Positions 5,300-13,198 of a stretch of DNA of 64,000 nucleotides are shown here, one piece after another. Each line of letters begins with the position of its first letter. The first letter of the stretch is position 1. The DNA comes from Thermanaeromonas sp. C210 (GTDB lineage: Bacteria > Bacillota > DSM-521 > Neomoorellales > Neomoorellaceae). The position numbers and the translations under genes were made by a program. The stretch lies in NCBI RefSeq assembly GCF_013167955.1, contig NZ_BLWF01000004.1, positions 1 to 64,000 of the forward strand. Direction: 5' to 3'. The notes below the pieces were generated by a model. That model searched no databases, was not told where the DNA came from, and saw nothing but the letters and a program-made list of their open reading frames with translations.

Positions 5300-5373
5300 T
5301 GCGGGATGGTGTAGCGGTAGCACACATGACTCTGGATCATGTTGCCCTGGTTCGAATCCAGGTCCCGCAGCCA
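5300..5373 (+). tRNA. tRNA-Gln (anticodon CUG)
   Basis: A complete cloverleaf can be drawn. The acceptor stem is TGCGGGA/TCCCGCA. A four-pair D-stem follows. The anticodon stem CATGA/TCATG closes the loop CTCTGGA (anticodon CTG). The T-arm is CCTGG-TTCGAAT-CCAGG. Discriminator G is followed by an encoded CCA. Its 3' 43 bases recur at 10838-10880, so it is also the attachment site of the island that follows. Confidence 0.96.
5331..5373 (+). repeat. attL-like repeat: 3' part of tRNA-Gln
   Basis: These 43 bases run from the anticodon loop to the encoded CCA. They match 10838-10880 at 42 of 43 positions; the only difference is C at 5345 versus T at 10852. Integrases of tRNA-targeting elements regenerate the tRNA at one end and leave a 3' fragment at the other, which is the arrangement seen. 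Confidence 0.9.
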
Positions 5374-5383
5374 AGGAAAATCA

Positions 5384-5410
5384 AGGCCTCCCGAAATTGG
5401 GAGGCTTTAA
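5384..5410 (+). terminator. Intrinsic terminator after tRNA-Gln
   Basis: A stem GCCTCCC/GGGAGGC (5386-5392 with 5399-5405) with a six-base loop is followed by TTTAAAATTT. It ends the gltX/tRNA-Gln transcript. It lies on the island side of the left repeat; another terminator follows the right repeat at 10894. Confidence 0.75.
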
Positions 5411-5429
5411 AATTTACCTCGTTTGACCC

Positions 5430-5576
5430 CTATTTGACCCCTACAGGGAAAAAACACTCGACTGCGGCGGCCTCCAGAAACCTCCTCACCTCCTTGACGC
5501 TGAACGGGGCCGCTTCCTTTTTCCTCATGGGGGCAGCTCCGTCGCCTCGTTTACGTTCCGATGTGGACTACTTCCT
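5430..5576 (-). pseudogene. Tyrosine recombinase (integrase) relic
   Basis: On the minus strand a stretch reads NVNEATELPP, then after a one-base frame change in a C-run MRKKEAAPFSVKEVRRFLEAA. This matches the junction between the core-binding domain and the catalytic domain of tyrosine integrases. It then jumps to a short tail ending GVK-stop, with GSNE after the stop, resembling integrase C-termini. All catalytic residues (R-H-R-Y) are lost in the internal deletion. It lies directly beside the tRNA attachment site with its 3' end toward the tRNA. It is too short for certainty, but position and sequence agree. Confidence 0.6.
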
Positions 5577-5703
5577 TTAATACTTAAAGCAGGTGCGGGG
5601 TATCACTCCGGTTATTGTCCTGGACGAATTCCACCTGGCCGGAGAGACATCCCCGGCTTTCTTGTTTTTCAGGGTTCTGATCGAGAAAGAAGGAGAGTTT
5701 TGA
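5551..5703 (+). pseudogene. Transposition/ExeA-type AAA ATPase relic
   Basis: The frame reads through one TAA at 5578-5580 as DVDYFL-stop-YLKQVRGITPVIVLDEFHLAGE. The segment TPVIVLDEFHL resembles the Walker B strand of ExeA/IS21-helper-like ATPases, in which a D-E pair follows a hydrophobic run. No Walker A motif remains upstream. Only about 50 codons are recognisable, so the family call is tentative. Confidence 0.35.
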
Positions 5704-5779
5704 GATAGGATTTTACACGCCCAACCAAGGTACACAAAACTGGAAAACAAGTGAATTTCTGGGGTATAATACTCGTGGG

Positions 5780-6016
5780 GTGATCGTTGACGTGCTGGAT
5801 CGGATAATCAAAGAGGCCGAAGACGTCCTCGGCATACCGGGGGAGATCATCTTCAGAGAGGGTGTAAAGAAGTTCCTGCTCTCCAAGGTCGAGGAGAACA
5901 ACAGCCTCATCAAATCTCTAAAGGAGAAGTACGGCGCTTCGGGATACCTGGAGCTGGAAGAAAAAATCAGGAGGGGCGACGTGCCCGAGCACCCCGCTTG
6001 GAAGGGCGTGATGTGA
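5780..6016 (+). CDS. Small acidic protein, possible antitoxin-like
   Basis: A 78-residue protein starting at GTG, with TATAAT ten bases upstream at 5765-5770 that could be its own -10 box. The sequence is largely helical and charged, including LKEKYGASGYLELEEKI in the second half. I recognise no domain. Size, highly charged helices and the adjacent broken frame beginning ILWEELSGHTEAL suggest the first gene of a toxin-antitoxin-like pair, as often carried by islands. That role is inference. Confidence 0.5.
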   Translation: MIVDVLDRIIKEAEDVLGIPGEIIFREGVKKFLLSKVEENNSLIKSLKEKYGASGYLELEEKIRRGDVPEHPAWKGVM

Positions 6017-6126
6017 TCCTGTGGGAGGAGCTGTCCGGGCACACCGAAGCCCTGTAGGGGCTGGTCCGCCGGCTGGAAGCAGGTGAAACCGACTGGGGGG
6101 GTCGCTTAACTGATCCTGTTCAGTAA
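6013..6126 (+). pseudogene. Broken short frame after the 78-aa gene
   Basis: Overlapping the end of the previous gene by four bases, a frame reads VILWEELSGHTEAL, hits TAG at 6055-6057, and continues GLVRRLEAGETDWGG to a stop at 6124-6126. The close spacing suggests a former two-gene unit whose second gene is truncated and interrupted. I do not recognise a family with confidence. Confidence 0.3.
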
Positions 6127-6188
6127 AAACAATAACGAGGTGGTAAAATCGACAGTAAGCAGGTATAATGGTCTAGGGGGTGAATGTA

Positions 6189-6407
6189 ATGGCTTTGCCA
6201 TGCGAACCGCGCGACTATGCCAAGGTTCTCATCGACCGGTTAACCGATGAACAGGTACAGGCGCTCCTAGTCATCCTGGAGTCCATGGCCTGGCCGACAG
6301 AGCGGATTACTCCGGAAGAAGCTGAGGAGATCGAAGCAGGATTTGCCGAAATCGAAGCGGGTAAAGGCGTGAAGGCTGAAGATGTCTGGAAGGAACTTGG
6401 TATTTGA
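6189..6407 (+). CDS. RelB-like antitoxin of a type II toxin-antitoxin pair
   Basis: A 72-residue acidic protein whose gene overlaps the following RelE-like toxin gene by 26 bases, the standard antitoxin-toxin layout. It would bind and neutralise the toxin and probably repress the pair. The C-terminal half is rich in Glu (EEAEEIEAGFAEIEAG). ATG at 6189 is preferred because AGGGGG (6175-6180) lies at the right distance; a GTG at 6180 would overlap that site. No clear DNA-binding motif can be named from this short sequence. Confidence 0.7.
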   Translation: MALPCEPRDYAKVLIDRLTDEQVQALLVILESMAWPTERITPEEAEEIEAGFAEIEAGKGVKAEDVWKELGI

Positions 6408-6663
6408 GATTATTTTCTCCCCCAAGGCCATAAGGCAGATGAAAAAGCTTGAGCGGGAAACACAGGTGAGGATCAAGTCGGCAATCGAGAGAAGCCTGCG
6501 GAGTTTCCCGCCTGAAGGAGATGTCGTGAAGTTAGAGGGGCAAAGAGATGTTTTTAGACTTCGGGTAGGTGATTGGAGGGTAACTTTCCGGTATCGGTTC
6601 GACAAGAGGGAAGTACATATTTCCGAAGTCGTCCATCGGAGCAAAGCCTACCAAGTAAGATAA
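6382..6663 (+). CDS. RelE/ParE-family toxin
   Basis: A 93-residue basic protein of the RelE/ParE fold, which in the RelE branch cleaves mRNA on the ribosome. Features are the N-terminal strand-helix FSPKAIRQMKKLERET, the central GDVVKLEGQRDVFRLRVGDW strand pair, and the C-terminal VHISEVVHRSKAY containing the family's late basic residues. It overlaps the antitoxin gene, implying translational coupling. It appears intact, unlike most of the island. Confidence 0.82.
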   Translation: MSGRNLVFEIIFSPKAIRQMKKLERETQVRIKSAIERSLRSFPPEGDVVKLEGQRDVFRLRVGDWRVTFRYRFDKREVHISEVVHRSKAYQVR

Positions 6664-6872
6664 TTTTGTCGAGGGGTAACAGCATGATCGGATAATCTCA
6701 GGCAGTCCTGGCGGTCCCACCTGCGGGCCGTTTTCCTTTTGGCCGGTAATGGCTAGAGGAAATCGGAGCATAGAGCAAAGACCGGGCAGGCCTCCATGGG
6801 CGGCTGGTTCTTATCCGGGCCGTTCCCCGTTTGTTTATACGCCAACGACTGTCCTGCGAAAAGGGGGGTAAA

Positions 6873-7080
6873 GTTGGCTGCTGAGAAAAACCAGGCAGCT
6901 GAAAAAGCCCTGACCGTTGAGGATGTCTTTAGGAAGGCCGAGCTGGAGCGCCGCAGCGGAAAAGGCCGTCCGAGACAGGGCCTCCATGGTGGCGGGCGCG
7001 AAGGCGGAAGGCATAATAGAAGCAAAGCAGGATGCTATTCTTTGATACCTGAAGAAGAGGTTTGGCGGTGTCACCTGTGA
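6873..7080 (+). pseudogene. Relic resembling the C-terminus of an Rpn/PD-(D/E)XK-type element protein
   Basis: One frame reads AAEKALTVEDVFRKAELERR. A second, shifted frame continues AAAEKAVRDRASMVAGAKAEG and IIEAKQDAIL, stops at TGA 7043-7045, then YLKKRFGGV. Alternating charged helices ending in a motif like AIL-YLKKRFG resemble the tail of recombination-promoting nuclease (Rpn) family proteins. The stretch from 6664 to here shows nothing else codable. Family assignment is weak. Confidence 0.3.
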
Positions 7081-7086
7081 GAATAA

Positions 7087-7329
7087 GATACGGCAGGTAA
7101 GCGCCTGACCAGGAACGCAGAAAAAGACCTTCTGAGGTTGCGGGACTTGACGCAAAGGGCTACCAAAGAGATCCTAAACCTCAAAGAAAACCCGTACAAA
7201 GGCCACCCGCTTAGAGGTAGTCTTCGTGGAGCCCGGGCATTGGAATTCTCCCTCAAAGGCGTGGCCTAAGCCTACGTGGTACTGGAAGAAGAGAAGGTCT
7301 GCCTGGTATTGTCAAAGGAAAGGAATTAA
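7087..7329 (+). pseudogene. Second RelE-type toxin, broken
   Basis: The frame reads KRLTRNAEKDLLRLRDL, then ENPYKGHPLRGSLRGARALEF, followed by an in-frame TAA at 7267-7269 and AYVVLEEEKVCLVLSKERN. This is the core of a RelE-like toxin: N-terminal helices, the NPYKGHPLRG turn and the paired C-terminal strands. It lacks a start codon and an antitoxin, and is interrupted. It is unlike the intact toxin at 6382, so it is not a duplicate of it. Confidence 0.6.
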
Positions 7330-7341
7330 GCTATTTTGCGT

Positions 7342-8881
7342 TTACGAGAAGTATTCTGCTATTAAGCAGGAGAAAAAGAATAGAAAAAGTTCTTCTTCTC
7401 GGAGGGAATCTGTTCCCAGGATCTCGAATATCCGGCTTAGCCTGTAGGTCAAGGTATTTCTATGAATGAAAAGCTTCTTGGCGGTCTGCGAGATATTAAG
7501 GCCGTTTTGAAGGTAGGTATACAAACACCGGACGTATTCGGTATTGTTTTTTTCGTCGTATTCTTTGAGTTTCAGTACTAGAGGATGGCAGAGGCTTTTC
7601 AGGCTGGTGGACTTATCCAGAGATCTTAGGATATGGTCTATGTAGTAATCCCGAAAATAATACCTCCACCTGTGGGGATCCTTTTTAGTCCCTTCCGTCA
7701 GGGCTATTTTGCTCTGGATGTAAGGGTACTTGAGGTTGAGAAAGTTATAGAACTTCAGGCTGATTCCGCATTTGATGCCGATCCGTGAAAGTAGTTCATC
7801 TAGCTCCTTCAAGAAGGCCGAATCATCAAGTGAGTAGTCGTTTTCGCGGAGGACGGCAATAATTGAATTTTCGTACGTAAATATAATGGCTCTTCCAATA
7901 AGTTTCTTTATACGGTATATGTACGTCTTAAACAATACCTCGTCCAAGCTCTGTTCGGGAGATGAAAAATTGAGGAGGTAGAAGCCGTCCTCAAGACCCC
8001 ACTTTCTCTTTCTTAGATGATACTCCACTACTTTCTTTTCCACTTCGAATCCGTTCAGCAACCTCTCGATGAAGTAGAAGGGTTCTTCTGTTATGTCCGT
8101 GAGCTCCCGGTTCTTGGAGATGGCTAGCTCCATCACGTTTTTCAGGTGATAGACAAGGGATAGCTGGCCCAGGGTAAAAGGTTTGTTGATGTCGATGAGA
8201 CCAAAGGTGCCGAAGTGTTTTCCGTTAATGCTGAGACCGGCTATCATCTGAGTATATCTGTCCGAGGAGTTACTTTTATAAAAAAACGGTTTCTTCCTGG
8301 TGCGGACCCATTCGCTCATCTTTTTCCGCTCCGGAAAAGACAAGCTTTCCACAGGGGAATACCCGTACCGTATTACCTCTTCCCAGATGGTACCCTGGTA
8401 GTTCTCCGGAAGCTTTCCTGCGGTCATAATAAGCGCAAGGGAGGCATCGAACAGGGCGATGATTTTCCAAAGCTGTGGCGCCGATATCAAATATTGTCTG
8501 CAAGGGCTCATTCTGTATTATAGCGTCAATCATACGCCTGTTCCAGGTGGAGTATTTTTCGAAGATATCCTGGAGCATATGGAAGACTTCCAGAACATCA
8601 AGTGAGGTGTCTATATTGATAAGGTTGCAGGGGAGCTGTTGGGAAAGTCTGTCGTCCAAGGGACCAACGCAGACAACGCATAAATCTGCTGCCGCGAGTG
8701 TGTCCACCCCGCTAGCCAGAGTTTCTGCCTCCAAGACGTAAAGATAGTCTTTGGAAGGAAGGCGGGGAAGCTCTTTAACGATTCTCGCCTGTTTCAGGTG
8801 GAGCTCTATGGACTCATCGAGTTTTGCTCTGGGGTTAAAGGGCTTCAACTCGTCAAGGATGATATGCATATTGAGGTTCAT
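7342..8881 (-). pseudogene. PucR/CdaR-type transcriptional regulator with one frameshift
   Basis: Two overlapping minus-strand frames (8881-8276 and 8511-7342) join into one regulator of about 510 residues if the frame changes near 8485. The first ends NEPLQTIFDI and the second resumes ISAPQLWKIIALFDASL. The N-terminal part resembles a PucR-type ligand region, the middle is GAF-like (KPFFYKSNSSDR...), and the C-terminus is the family's helix-turn-helix: NISQTAKKLFIHRNTLTYRL. Such regulators control catabolic genes beside them. This one is divergent from the O-demethylase gene, its likely target. The start at 8881 follows GGAGGAGGCAAGAGATA. A sequencing error would make it intact. Confidence 0.75.
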
Positions 8882-9285: not shown

Positions 9286-9320
9286 AAAGGCCTATCTTGT
9301 GTTAAAAGGAGATGGTATTT

Positions 9321-10694
9321 ATGTATTCGCCGAACAGTCCGGTGTATGAAGGTGCTACTTTGTTATTTGCTATACGGCCTGGGGTTCTTGTTCCTTATGA
9401 ATATACTGGGTACAAAGATGAGATTCTGGCTTCAAAAACAACCGCCTGGTTCGGGCTGAGCCTCATGCTATCCCCGGTTTATGACGTGAAAGGTCCAGAT
9501 GTAGTGAAATTTTTGAACTCCATCTGTGTTAACGATTTTAGCAATCTTGGTGATAAAGGGATCCGGCATGCAGTGATTTGCAATGAAAAAGGGCAGATTC
9601 TGACAGATGGTGTGGTGATTAAAATTGCAGAGGATACTTTCCGCACCTACTGGCTGAACCCGCCCATTGATTATCTAGTTAAGACGAGCGGTATGGATGT
9701 GGTAGGGGAGGACATTACTGGGAAGGAATACTTCATCCAGATTGCTGGGGAAAAGTCCTTGGAAATACTTGAAAAAGCCTGTGAGTGCGACCTGCATGAT
9801 ATTAAATTTGCGACTCACCGCATGGCAAAGATGGGTAACAAGGACATACGGATAATTAGGCTTGGCATGACTGGTAACCTGGCCTATGAAGTTCACGGGC
9901 CTATAGAAGATTTCGATGAAGTCTATCAGAGGATTTGGGAGGCAGGCAAGTCGTTTGGCGCCAAGAAGCTTGGTTTCCGCGCCTATTGTATGAGCCACAC
10001 CGAGGGAGGGTTTCCTAATATCCATATTCACTATCCGCTGCCCTGGTTTGAATCCGACGAGGGGCGGTACGCGGTCGACGGAGGTCTGTCTGCTTATCTG
10101 AAAGGCCGTCCTGATTTGGCCTGGTACAACATGAACCGTCGGCTGATGGGAAGTGTTGGAGACGATCTTGATGTCCGTTTCGTTACTCCATACGATGTTG
10201 GCTGGGGACACCTGGTAAAGTTCAATCATGAATTTCCGGGAAGAAAGGCACTGGAGAAAATCGCTCAAAATCCTCCGCGAACCGTGGTAACCCTGGAATG
10301 GAACGCAGATGATATCGCTGCTGTCTATGCTACTCAATTTCGGGGCCGGGAAGTAGAACCTTGCGAAAGAATAGATGCCGAGCCGCTGGATCAGTACTAT
10401 CTCGATAACACCGCTGGAGGGGTATTCATATATCGTGCTGACTGGGTAATGGCGAATGGCAAGAAGGTGGGGATCAGCACTGGCCGTATCTGTAGCTACT
10501 ATTACAACAGAATGATATCTCTCGGGTTTATCGATCGCCAATATGCAGAGGTAGGGAAGGAACTCACATTGATCTGGGGAACACCGGGTACTCCGCAGAA
10601 AGAGATCCGCGTCAAAGTTGCCCGTTACCCGTATATTGATCTGGTTCGCAATGAGCACCGGGACGTGGAGACCATTCCACGTTATAGGAAATAG
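9321..10694 (+). CDS. Tetrahydrofolate-dependent aromatic O-demethylase (LigM/DesA family, GcvT fold)
   Basis: A 457-residue protein matching LigM/DesA-type vanillate or syringate O-demethylases over its whole length. The family moves the methyl of an aromatic methoxy group to tetrahydrofolate without a corrinoid protein. Family-typical segments are NPPIDYLVKTSGMDV, the glycine-cleavage-T-like core, TPYDVGWGHLVKFNHEFPGR, VTLEWNADDIAAVYA, and SLGFIDRQYAEVGKELTLIW. ATG at 9321 is chosen because AAAAGGAG lies nine bases upstream; an in-frame ATG at 9312 overlaps that site. It is the only sizeable intact gene of the island. In an acetogen, the methyl-THF formed could enter the Wood-Ljungdahl pathway directly. 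The substrate is not determinable from sequence; other methylated aromatics are possible. Confidence 0.85.
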   Translation: MYSPNSPVYEGATLLFAIRPGVLVPYEYTGYKDEILASKTTAWFGLSLMLSPVYDVKGPDVVKFLNSICVNDFSNLGDKGIRHAVICNEKGQILTDGVVIKIAEDTFRTYWLNPPIDYLVKTSGMDVVGEDITGKEYFIQIAGEKSLEILEKACECDLHDIKFATHRMAKMGNKDIRIIRLGMTGNLAYEVHGPIEDFDEVYQRIWEAGKSFGAKKLGFRAYCMSHTEGGFPNIHIHYPLPWFESDEGRYAVDGGLSAYLKGRPDLAWYNMNRRLMGSVGDDLDVRFVTPYDVGWGHLVKFNHEFPGRKALEKIAQNPPRTVVTLEWNADDIAAVYATQFRGREVEPCERIDAEPLDQYYLDNTAGGVFIYRADWVMANGKKVGISTGRICSYYYNRMISLGFIDRQYAEVGKELTLIWGTPGTPQKEIRVKVARYPYIDLVRNEHRDVETIPRYRK

Positions 10695-10837: not shown

Positions 10838-10880
10838 TCTGGATCATGTTGTCCTGGTTCGAATCCAGGTCCCGCAGCCA
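10838..10880 (+). repeat. attR-like repeat: duplicated 3' end of tRNA-Gln
   Basis: Forty-two of 43 bases match the 3' part of the tRNA-Gln at 5331-5373, through the CCA end. The 5' half of a tRNA is absent upstream, so this is not a tRNA gene. It marks the right end of the island. Confidence 0.9.
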
Positions 10881-11777: not shown

Positions 11778-12917
11778 TCAAGCTTGACGAAGACAAGAAT
11801 AGCGGTCGGTTAAGCTCATGAGGCCCTGGGACTGCCAATAGGCATTGCCCAGGGCTCTATTCATTGGCCCATGGGCCATCCGCCATGGCCCTTTGCGAGC
11901 ATTGGCAAATTGATGTACTACCCACTCTGGTAGCCCCAGTGCACGCAGTTCGCGGTATCTTGTCCGTACTCGCTTCCACTGCTTCCAGAGACACATGCGT
12001 AGCCTCCTCCGCATCCAGCCTTCTATCTCCTCAAAGACGCTGGGCGTTTCGGCCAGGGCAAAGTATCCTATCCACCCGCCCAAGTAGGCGTTGAGACGCT
12101 CTATACGCTCGGCCATACTCACGGGTTTATTCCGGGCAGTTATCTCCCGAATTTTCCCTTTCACCCGCTCGATGGTCTGAGGCGCCAGGCGGATAAGAAT
12201 TTCTCCTGTCTTGCGTTTGTGCATGCTGAACCCCAGGAATTTCAGTTTCCACGGTCGGTCTACCGCGCTCTTTTGCTCATTAATCTTGAGCTTCAACCGC
12301 TCCTGCAGGAAGTTGCGGATACTTGCCATGACCCTTTCTCCCGCTCGTTTGCTTTTGACGTAGATGTTGCAGTCGTCGGCGTAACGGACGAATTTGTGGC
12401 CCCTCTTTTCCAGTTCTTTGTCCAGGTCGTCCAGGAGGATGTTGGCCAGTAACGGGCTTAAAGGTCCACCCTGCGGCGTCCCTTCTGCCGTCTCTATGAC
12501 TATTCCGTTTACCATGACGCCTGCCTGGAGATAACGGCGGATAAGGATGAGTACCCTCTTATCCGTTACTTTTCGGGCCACTCGGGCCATGAGTATGTCG
12601 TGGTTTACCCGGTCGAAGTATTTCTCGATGTCCAGGTCCACAGCCCATTCGTATCCTTCTTCTACGTACTGCCGCGCCTTCTTTACCGCGTCGTGGGCTC
12701 TCCTTCCGGGTCGAAACCCGAAACTGCCTTCTGAAAACTGCGGTTCGAAGATGGGCGTCAATACCTGCAGGAGGGCCTGCTGGATCAGGCGGTCCATCAC
12801 TGTGGGTATCCCCAGCTTCCGTTTGCCTCCCCCGGGTTTCGGGATTTCGACCCGGCGCACGGGCTTTGGTCTGTAGGTTCCCGCGAGCAGTTCTCCCCGG
12901 ATGCGCGGCCTTGTCAA
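11778..12917 (-). CDS. ltrA: Group II intron reverse transcriptase/maturase, main part (copy 1)
   Basis: Reverse transcriptase and maturase of 379 residues, needed for intron splicing and retrohoming. RT blocks are visible: IPKPGGGKRKLGIPTVMDRL, SFGFRPGRRAHDAV, LDIEKYFDRVNHDIL, GTPQGGPLSPLLANILL and the catalytic FVRYADDCNIYV. The maturase X domain follows (LNAYLGGWIGYFALAETPS). No HNH endonuclease domain is present, as usual for class IIC. The first RT block lies in the upstream frame (12914-13198), so this frame starts at a TTG whose last two bases begin that frame's TGA stop. Whether the two parts are made as one protein is unclear. Confidence 0.85.
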   Translation of the reverse strand: MTRPRIRGELLAGTYRPKPVRRVEIPKPGGGKRKLGIPTVMDRLIQQALLQVLTPIFEPQFSEGSFGFRPGRRAHDAVKKARQYVEEGYEWAVDLDIEKYFDRVNHDILMARVARKVTDKRVLILIRRYLQAGVMVNGIVIETAEGTPQGGPLSPLLANILLDDLDKELEKRGHKFVRYADDCNIYVKSKRAGERVMASIRNFLQERLKLKINEQKSAVDRPWKLKFLGFSMHKRKTGEILIRLAPQTIERVKGKIREITARNKPVSMAERIERLNAYLGGWIGYFALAETPSVFEEIEGWMRRRLRMCLWKQWKRVRTRYRELRALGLPEWVVHQFANARKGPWRMAHGPMNRALGNAYWQSQGLMSLTDRYSCLRQA

Positions 12918-13198
12918 ACGCGTATTTGGTCCCGCAACCCTTCGGCCGGGATGCCGTCCACGCCGGGCGCGCCTCCGTTCCGCTCTACCCGCTTTAACGC
13001 GGCCAGCATGTTGCTCCTTTCCACCACCTGCTCCATCAGGCCGCTACCTTGGCCTCCGCGAGGTGACGTTCCGCTTTGTGCCGGAGAAGAACTCGGCCCT
13101 CCCGCGGTCCCCCGTGGCTTCACCACTTCCTCCCGCGGACAGGCCCCTTGCGGGGTTTTCTGCTGTCTTCGTCCTTCTCGCGAACGCATCGGTTTCAC
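12914..13198 (-). CDS. Group II intron RT, N-terminal part in a different frame (copy 1)
   Basis: This 94-residue frame ends with MEQVVERSNMLAALKRVERN, GGAPGVDGIPAEGLRDQIRV and then TGA. That is the normal N-terminus (RT-0/RT-1) of class IIC intron proteins, which should continue directly into PRIRGELLAG of the next frame. A -1 frame change is needed at 12914-12918, where stop and next start overlap as TTGA. The start at 13198 is GTG; AGAGGTG lies before the next in-frame ATG (13189). The same break is in copy 2. Confidence 0.7.
   Translation of the reverse strand: MKPMRSREGRRQQKTPQGACPREEVVKPRGTAGGPSSSPAQSGTSPRGGQGSGLMEQVVERSNMLAALKRVERNGGAPGVDGIPAEGLRDQIRV

Follow-up and report, generated by a model that had tools for sequence, protein, structure and literature searches.

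The gene at positions 9321 to 10694 on the forward strand of the 64,000-nucleotide stretch of DNA analyzed here (the window), which comes from the thermophilic anaerobe Thermanaeromonas sp. C210, probably encodes a corrinoid-independent, tetrahydrofolate (THF)-dependent aryl O-demethylase that acts on methoxyphenols or methoxyhydroquinones rather than on benzoates. We infer the reaction, the use of folate and the substrate class from the computed fold, clade membership, active-site residues and gene neighbors. The protein belongs to a distinct new branch of a known kind of enzyme, the LigM-like folate family, and this branch comes with a testable guess at its substrate. The original prediction of a THF-dependent aromatic demethylase is made probable by the fold and by the residues that are kept, but a LigM/DesA type in the narrow sense is not supported.

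The gene specifies a protein of 457 amino acids with a LigM fold, and its reading frame is open from an ATG at 9312 through position 10694 with no stop codon and no frameshift. The ATG at 9321 is preferred as the start because the ribosome-binding site AAAAGGAG (9304 to 9311, forward strand) is located 9 bases upstream of it, and because MYSPNSP, the N-terminus of both Moorella orthologs, falls at the position matching this start. Residue numbers used below follow the 460-amino-acid open reading frame that begins at 9312, not the 457-amino-acid form. The C210 protein is 89 and 86% identical to two Moorellaceae orthologs, and comparison of the genes yields dN/dS values of ~0.04 and ~0.07, which average over an old divergence with dS near saturation. 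These low ratios therefore indicate long-term constraint rather than a chance reading frame. Together with the open frame and the presence of a GCV_T domain, they bear out the expectation of a real and intact gene at this location.

GCV_T is the sole Pfam domain of the protein (E 7e-34), and LigM is its best sequence match in the PDB (3e-35). When an AlphaFold2 model (32 aligned sequences, mean pLDDT 92.6, pTM 0.91) was searched with Foldseek, the top 16 PDB matches were all LigM chains, followed by T-proteins, and the GCV_T fold spans the full length of LigM. LigM, a vanillate/3-O-methylgallate O-demethylase (PDB 5x1i-5x1n, 5tl4), shares this fold (Foldseek E 4.6e-37, TM ~0.77), and the two proteins are alike in size, in the position of the catalytic tyrosine and in the folate-side glutamate and glutamine. 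However, they are ~27% identical, the positions of LigM Arg122 and His60 are replaced in the C210 protein, and the two fall in separate clades. The best NCBIfam model is that of DesA, a syringate O-demethylase (NF047633), yet the C210 protein scores 185.8 bits against a cut-off of 800; DesA has the catalytic tyrosine in common with it but likewise occupies a separate clade. The LigM model (NF047885) gives 166.5 bits against a cut-off of 580. Calibration controls for the two models scored 777.7 against 580 (L076, LigM model) and 833.3 against 800 (L102, DesA model). Scores are also below the cut-offs of two GcvT models (78.4 versus 300 and 58.2 versus 235.85 bits), of the DMSP demethylase model (42 versus 410 bits) and of the sarcosine-oxidase model.

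In a tree of 105 rows, the C210 gene falls within a clade of 31 rows (SH-aLRT 100, branch 0.53), and both a 20-row LigM/DesA clade (SH-aLRT 99, branch 0.6) and the GcvT rows are separate from it. The 31 rows are a sample, drawn from the best 80 loci kept among at least 600 matching stretches, and the main protein of locus L028, which is identical to clade row L029, was left out as a duplicate. A 49-row tree chosen from the 105 supports the C210 clade, LigM/DesA and GcvT groups at 100/100, 100/99 and 100/100, respectively. Forcing the C210 gene together with LigM/DesA in this smaller tree is rejected by an AU test with a p-AU of 2.7e-61, a value to be read with the knowledge that the groups were defined after the first tree. 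Orthology to LigM or DesA is accordingly rejected by the two models, the AU test and the replaced Arg122 position. The notion of a LigM/DesA-type enzyme stands as far as the LigM fold and the single gene are concerned, but fails in the narrow sense for the same three reasons. Comparison with the GcvT and sarcosine types came out in favor of the original prediction, as evident by the position of the gene outside the GcvT clade and by the low sarcosine-oxidase and DMSP scores.

Active-site residues were counted in a MAFFT alignment of the 105 tree rows, and LigM numbering was assigned via the offset in the LigM pairwise alignment. We take LigM Tyr247 to be catalytic, Arg122 to serve the substrate carboxylate, and Glu215 and Gln165 to lie on the folate side. 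The Tyr247 position (Y225 in the C210 protein) is tyrosine in 31/31 clade rows and in 20/20 LigM/DesA rows. In contrast, it is arginine in 4/4 rows of GcvT, an aminomethyltransferase that has the GCV_T folate-binding domain in common with the C210 protein but a separate place in the tree. The Glu215 and Gln165 positions carry glutamate and glutamine, respectively, in all 31 clade rows. Arginine occupies the Arg122 position in 19 of the 20 LigM/DesA rows versus none of the 31 clade rows, where leucine (26 rows, and the C210 protein itself), methionine (2), isoleucine (2) or serine (1) is found. Histidine is present at the His60 position in 20/20 LigM/DesA rows, and is not among the residues listed for the C210 clade. 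The clade has a signature composed of Arg111 (31/31), His229 (31/31) and His86 (30/31), and no arginine is present at the Arg111 position in the LigM/DesA rows. We read the alignment as pointing to a clade in which the methyl-transfer machinery is retained and the benzoate clamp is lost, and Arg111 could be a new carboxylate clamp supplied from another position. Because the LigM and DesA model scores fall short, the AU test rejects the joint grouping and the substrate arginine is missing, there is no need to assume that vanillate or syringate is a substrate, and the natural substrate is probably neither of these LigM/DesA compounds. A methyl-transferring catalytic tyrosine, given without a residue number, is also described for LigM/DesA-like proteins of thermophilic lignin degraders in the available text of one study (PMC9296663).

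The gene is present as a single copy in the C210 genome (2.68 Mb, 99% complete), where two further matches are weak (28 and 26% identity over ~200 residues). At E <= 1e-20 it was found in 3/22 genomes of the order, host included, with the class-level search covering the same 22 genomes, and in 7 of 398 phylum-sample genomes (again counting the host), two of these with weak matches of ~200 residues. Relatives include Moorella stamsii DSM 26217, Fusibacter paucivorans, Sporosalibacterium, Acetobacterium, Parablautia, Sphingobium and Arthrobacter, and the clade as a whole spans Moorellaceae, acetogens, gut Clostridia and the aerobes Sphingobium, Arthrobacter and Agreia; several of its members derive from gut samples, judging by their record titles. 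Homologs on a Sphingobium plasmid and on an Acetoanaerobium replicon are 60 and 58% identical, respectively. A 38% relative adjoins an SMR efflux gene on a 7.5-kb mobilizable Psychrobacter plasmid (L121, NZ_CP124528.1).

Gene neighborhoods offer clues to the substrate. Three aerobic clade members, from Sphingobium sp. EP60837, Arthrobacter CAU 1506 and Agreia, reside near genes of the hydroxyquinol lower pathway, and each of the three main sub-branches of the clade contains one such aerobe with hydroxyquinol 1,2-dioxygenase and maleylacetate reductase genes nearby. The distribution of three carriers over three sub-branches therefore favors a common substrate class over one inherited operon. 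The Sphingobium protein (WP_066532091.1, annotated only as an aminomethyltransferase family protein) shares the clade of the C210 protein but, unlike it, is encoded in an aerobic host within a run on plasmid pEP1 that includes maleylacetate reductase, a dioxygenase, folD and folB. For Arthrobacter, the best PDB match of the dioxygenase is hydroxyquinol 1,2-dioxygenase (1tmx, 8.6e-141), and the reductase resembles maleylacetate reductases. Maleylacetate reductase homologs occur at 3/30 clade loci versus 0/59 outside (Fisher p 0.036), and hydroxyquinol-type dioxygenases at 3/30 versus 1/59 (L060), a difference that is not significant alone (Fisher p 0.11). Hydroxyquinol genes were not found at the anaerobic clade loci, and the substrate guess for the Moorellaceae is thus extrapolated from aerobes at 43-60% identity.

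A PucR regulator is encoded at 19/30 clade loci versus 4/59 outside (p 2e-8), and an NmrA-family gene near 4/30 clade members versus 1/59 others. These neighborhood counts are lower bounds, given that the search missed the PucR at L015. Locus L028 was counted as outside; moving it into the clade by hand gives 20/31 versus 3/58 for PucR and 5/31 versus 0/58 for NmrA. The NmrA-family gene resembles triphenylmethane reductase and YtfG, which reduces quinones. Genes for C1-THF metabolism are located beside clade members (folD and folB in Sphingobium, a cyclodeaminase, and PurU). However, PurU and FolD are more common outside the clade (13/59 and 9/59) than inside (2/30 and 2/30), and these counts speak against a simple THF story. 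In a Treponema MAG (L043:7863-10843), genes for a corrinoid protein and a pterin-binding methyltransferase come after that of a distant relative, and the locus gave no match to a URO-D-type methyltransferase I, an arrangement that possibly reflects a corrinoid-linked use of the GCV_T-type fold. Another distant relative (31%; G197, L018:3626-10652) has genes for an MFS transporter, a corrinoid protein and MetF in its vicinity, and its subclade also has a protein of Candidatus Formimonas warabiya.

In the mechanism we propose, a methoxyphenol or methoxyhydroquinone would bind, THF would attack the carbon of its methoxy group, and Y225 would help the phenolate to leave; the products would be 5-methyl-THF and the phenol. 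Aerobic relatives would in this way form hydroxyquinol, which hydroxyquinol 1,2-dioxygenase and maleylacetate reductase would process further. In acetogens, the methyl branch of the Wood-Ljungdahl pathway would take up 5-methyl-THF, and the phenol would be released. The host genome encodes acetyl-CoA synthase (ACS, PF03598), in agreement with the acetogen-type background that had been supposed, and methyl-THF could therefore feed this pathway, a flux that we infer from the computed gene content. ACS is present in 13/18 genomes of the family (Moorellaceae), host included. Co-occurrence of the demethylase gene with Wood-Ljungdahl genes is partial: ACS is present in 13/29 clade genomes or records versus 62/199 in a phylum sample. 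Among the 21 judged to be Bacillota, 13 have ACS (Fisher p 0.007). Fusibacter and Sporosalibacterium are without ACS, and therefore acetogenesis is no requirement for the gene.

Six B12-binding_2 proteins are encoded in the host as well, along with a cluster in which genes for URO-D-type methyltransferases and corrinoid proteins are grouped with one for a pterin-binding methyltransferase. An exclusive bypass of corrinoid is rejected by this gene content. The proposal that methoxy groups reach methyl-THF by bypassing corrinoid can thus be kept only as an additional route, with the folate enzyme as an addition to the corrinoid methyltransferases and not as their replacement. An MttB-type corrinoid methyltransferase (PF06253) was not found in the host and is present in 1/18 family genomes, a result that gives no test of MtvB, which we take to lie outside the PF06253 family. 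In hosts of this kind, the MtvABC-type corrinoid O-demethylases (Moorella, Acetobacterium) would likewise make THF the acceptor of methoxyaromatic methyl groups, but they consist of three proteins with corrinoid, whereas the C210 enzyme would be one GCV_T-fold protein without corrinoid; MtvB presumably has a fold that differs from GCV_T. In the available part of one study, Moorella genomes carry mtvABC, and newly isolated Moorella can use vanillate and syringate for growth, with methyl transfer from methoxyaromatics assigned to mtvABC (PMC11328732).

The gene is carried on a tRNA island, as anticipated in the original prediction. The integration site is a tRNA-Gln (CTG) gene at 5300 to 5373 (forward strand), whose last 42 bases (5332 to 5373) recur 5.5 kb away with 1 mismatch as a second copy of the tRNA 3′ end at the far end of the island (10839 to 10880, forward strand), and relatives have tRNA-Gln sites without this second copy. 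A tRNA-Gln query matched 16/18 family genomes, host included, and gltX is within 1.5 kb of the full-length tRNA-Gln locus in 11 of 15 relatives. Genomes G018 and G007 (L154, L153) have a second partial copy beside gltX, and this site apparently attracts repeated integration among members of the family. The tRNA-Gln and gltX genes run in the same direction in C210 (G004 is similar) and in opposite directions in several relatives, as if the segment had been inverted (loci compared with C210: L146, L147 and L142). In two Moorella genomes the demethylase gene resides elsewhere, beside apparent pyrimidine-synthesis genes (names judged from sequence), and therefore the gene has moved. Island positions 5400-7300 contain short frames only. 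A ParE-type toxin-like frame (6382-6663) is preceded by a short frame, and the two (6190-6663) are perhaps a toxin-antitoxin pair. Just outside the island is a group II intron reverse transcriptase/maturase (11778-13198; TIGR04416, 409.5 bits), the first part of which is seemingly in another frame (12914-13198).

A divergent PucR/CdaR-type regulator occupies 7342 to 8881 on the reverse strand in two frames (8276-8881 and 7342-8511). This gene is frameshifted in C210, and an intact 525-amino-acid ortholog is located beside the demethylase gene in Moorella stamsii. The frameshift makes expression of the C210 gene uncertain. The split regulator and the short frames at 5400-7300 would both fit a decaying island cargo, meaning a once-active enzyme no longer expressed in C210. 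Such decay would be compatible with an O-demethylase, but we regard it as somewhat unlikely: the enzyme gene has no stop or frameshift, its dN/dS (0.04-0.07) is low even if averaged over an old divergence, genome G010 keeps the gene although tblastn found no PucR beside it, and the PucR frameshift may be a sequencing error.

Other explanations concern the reaction itself. The enzyme could in function be an ordinary vanillate/syringate-type O-demethylase whose carboxylate site has been rearranged (Arg111 substituting for LigM Arg122 would be one example), and an arginine that is universal in the clade and absent there from LigM/DesA would suit this arrangement, as would the status of LigM as best PDB match by both sequence and fold. 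Moorella isolates that grow on vanillate and syringate could be cited in its favor as well, though the available text credits mtvABC (PMC11328732). With model scores far below the equivalog cut-offs (185.8/800 and 166.5/580 bits), a LigM/DesA placement rejected by the AU test, and aerobic neighbors that point to hydroxyquinol, this alternative is unlikely. It is less probable still that the protein is a methyltransferase I with a corrinoid protein, rather than THF, as its methyl acceptor. Two Acetobacterium clade members are near corrinoid clusters, and the L043 and L018 relatives adjoin corrinoid genes as described above. However, the latter two are outside the 31-row clade, no corrinoid protein or MT-II match is present in the C210 gene region or at the two Moorella loci, the folate-side Glu and Gln are retained throughout the clade, and it is C1-THF genes that adjoin in aerobes. 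Least probable of all is that the methyl donor is an N- or S-methyl compound and the enzyme of the GcvT, sarcosine, dimethylglycine or DMSP type. The GCV_T fold is in common, but GcvT, sarcosine or DMSP-type identity is rejected by the sub-threshold model scores and by the separate clade of the GcvT rows, and no glycine-cleavage or flavin partner is found among the annotated frames neighboring the C210 gene.

O-demethylation in acetogens has been described as corrinoid-based. In the accessible full-text literature, nothing turned up about acetogens with a LigM-type enzyme or about the C210 clade. THF-dependent demethylases recorded in the available parts of published work include DesA, LigM and DmdA, along with the demethylenases SesA and BrdA (PMC5547118), and the dicamba demethylases Dmt, Dmt50 and Dmt06 (PMC9404685). 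We tentatively suggest, at a confidence short of even, that the clade may be an unnamed family of methoxyhydroquinone/methoxyphenol:THF methyltransferases, laterally shared by aerobes and acetogens. In the former it would serve the hydroxyquinol pathway, and in the latter it would supply Wood-Ljungdahl methyl groups with no need for a Co(I) corrinoid or for ATP to reactivate it.

If the proposed function is correct, a folate route that relies on one protein would dispense with corrinoid, with an activating enzyme and with the ATP spent on reactivation. The range of methoxylated substrates open to anaerobes would widen to include those without a carboxylate. The clade would also provide a candidate enzyme for the conversion of methoxyhydroquinone to hydroxyquinol, a step suggested by a fungal study whose available text does not name the enzyme (PMC8336404). 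Given its gut-derived members, the clade may furthermore bear on the fate of methoxylated plant compounds in the gut.
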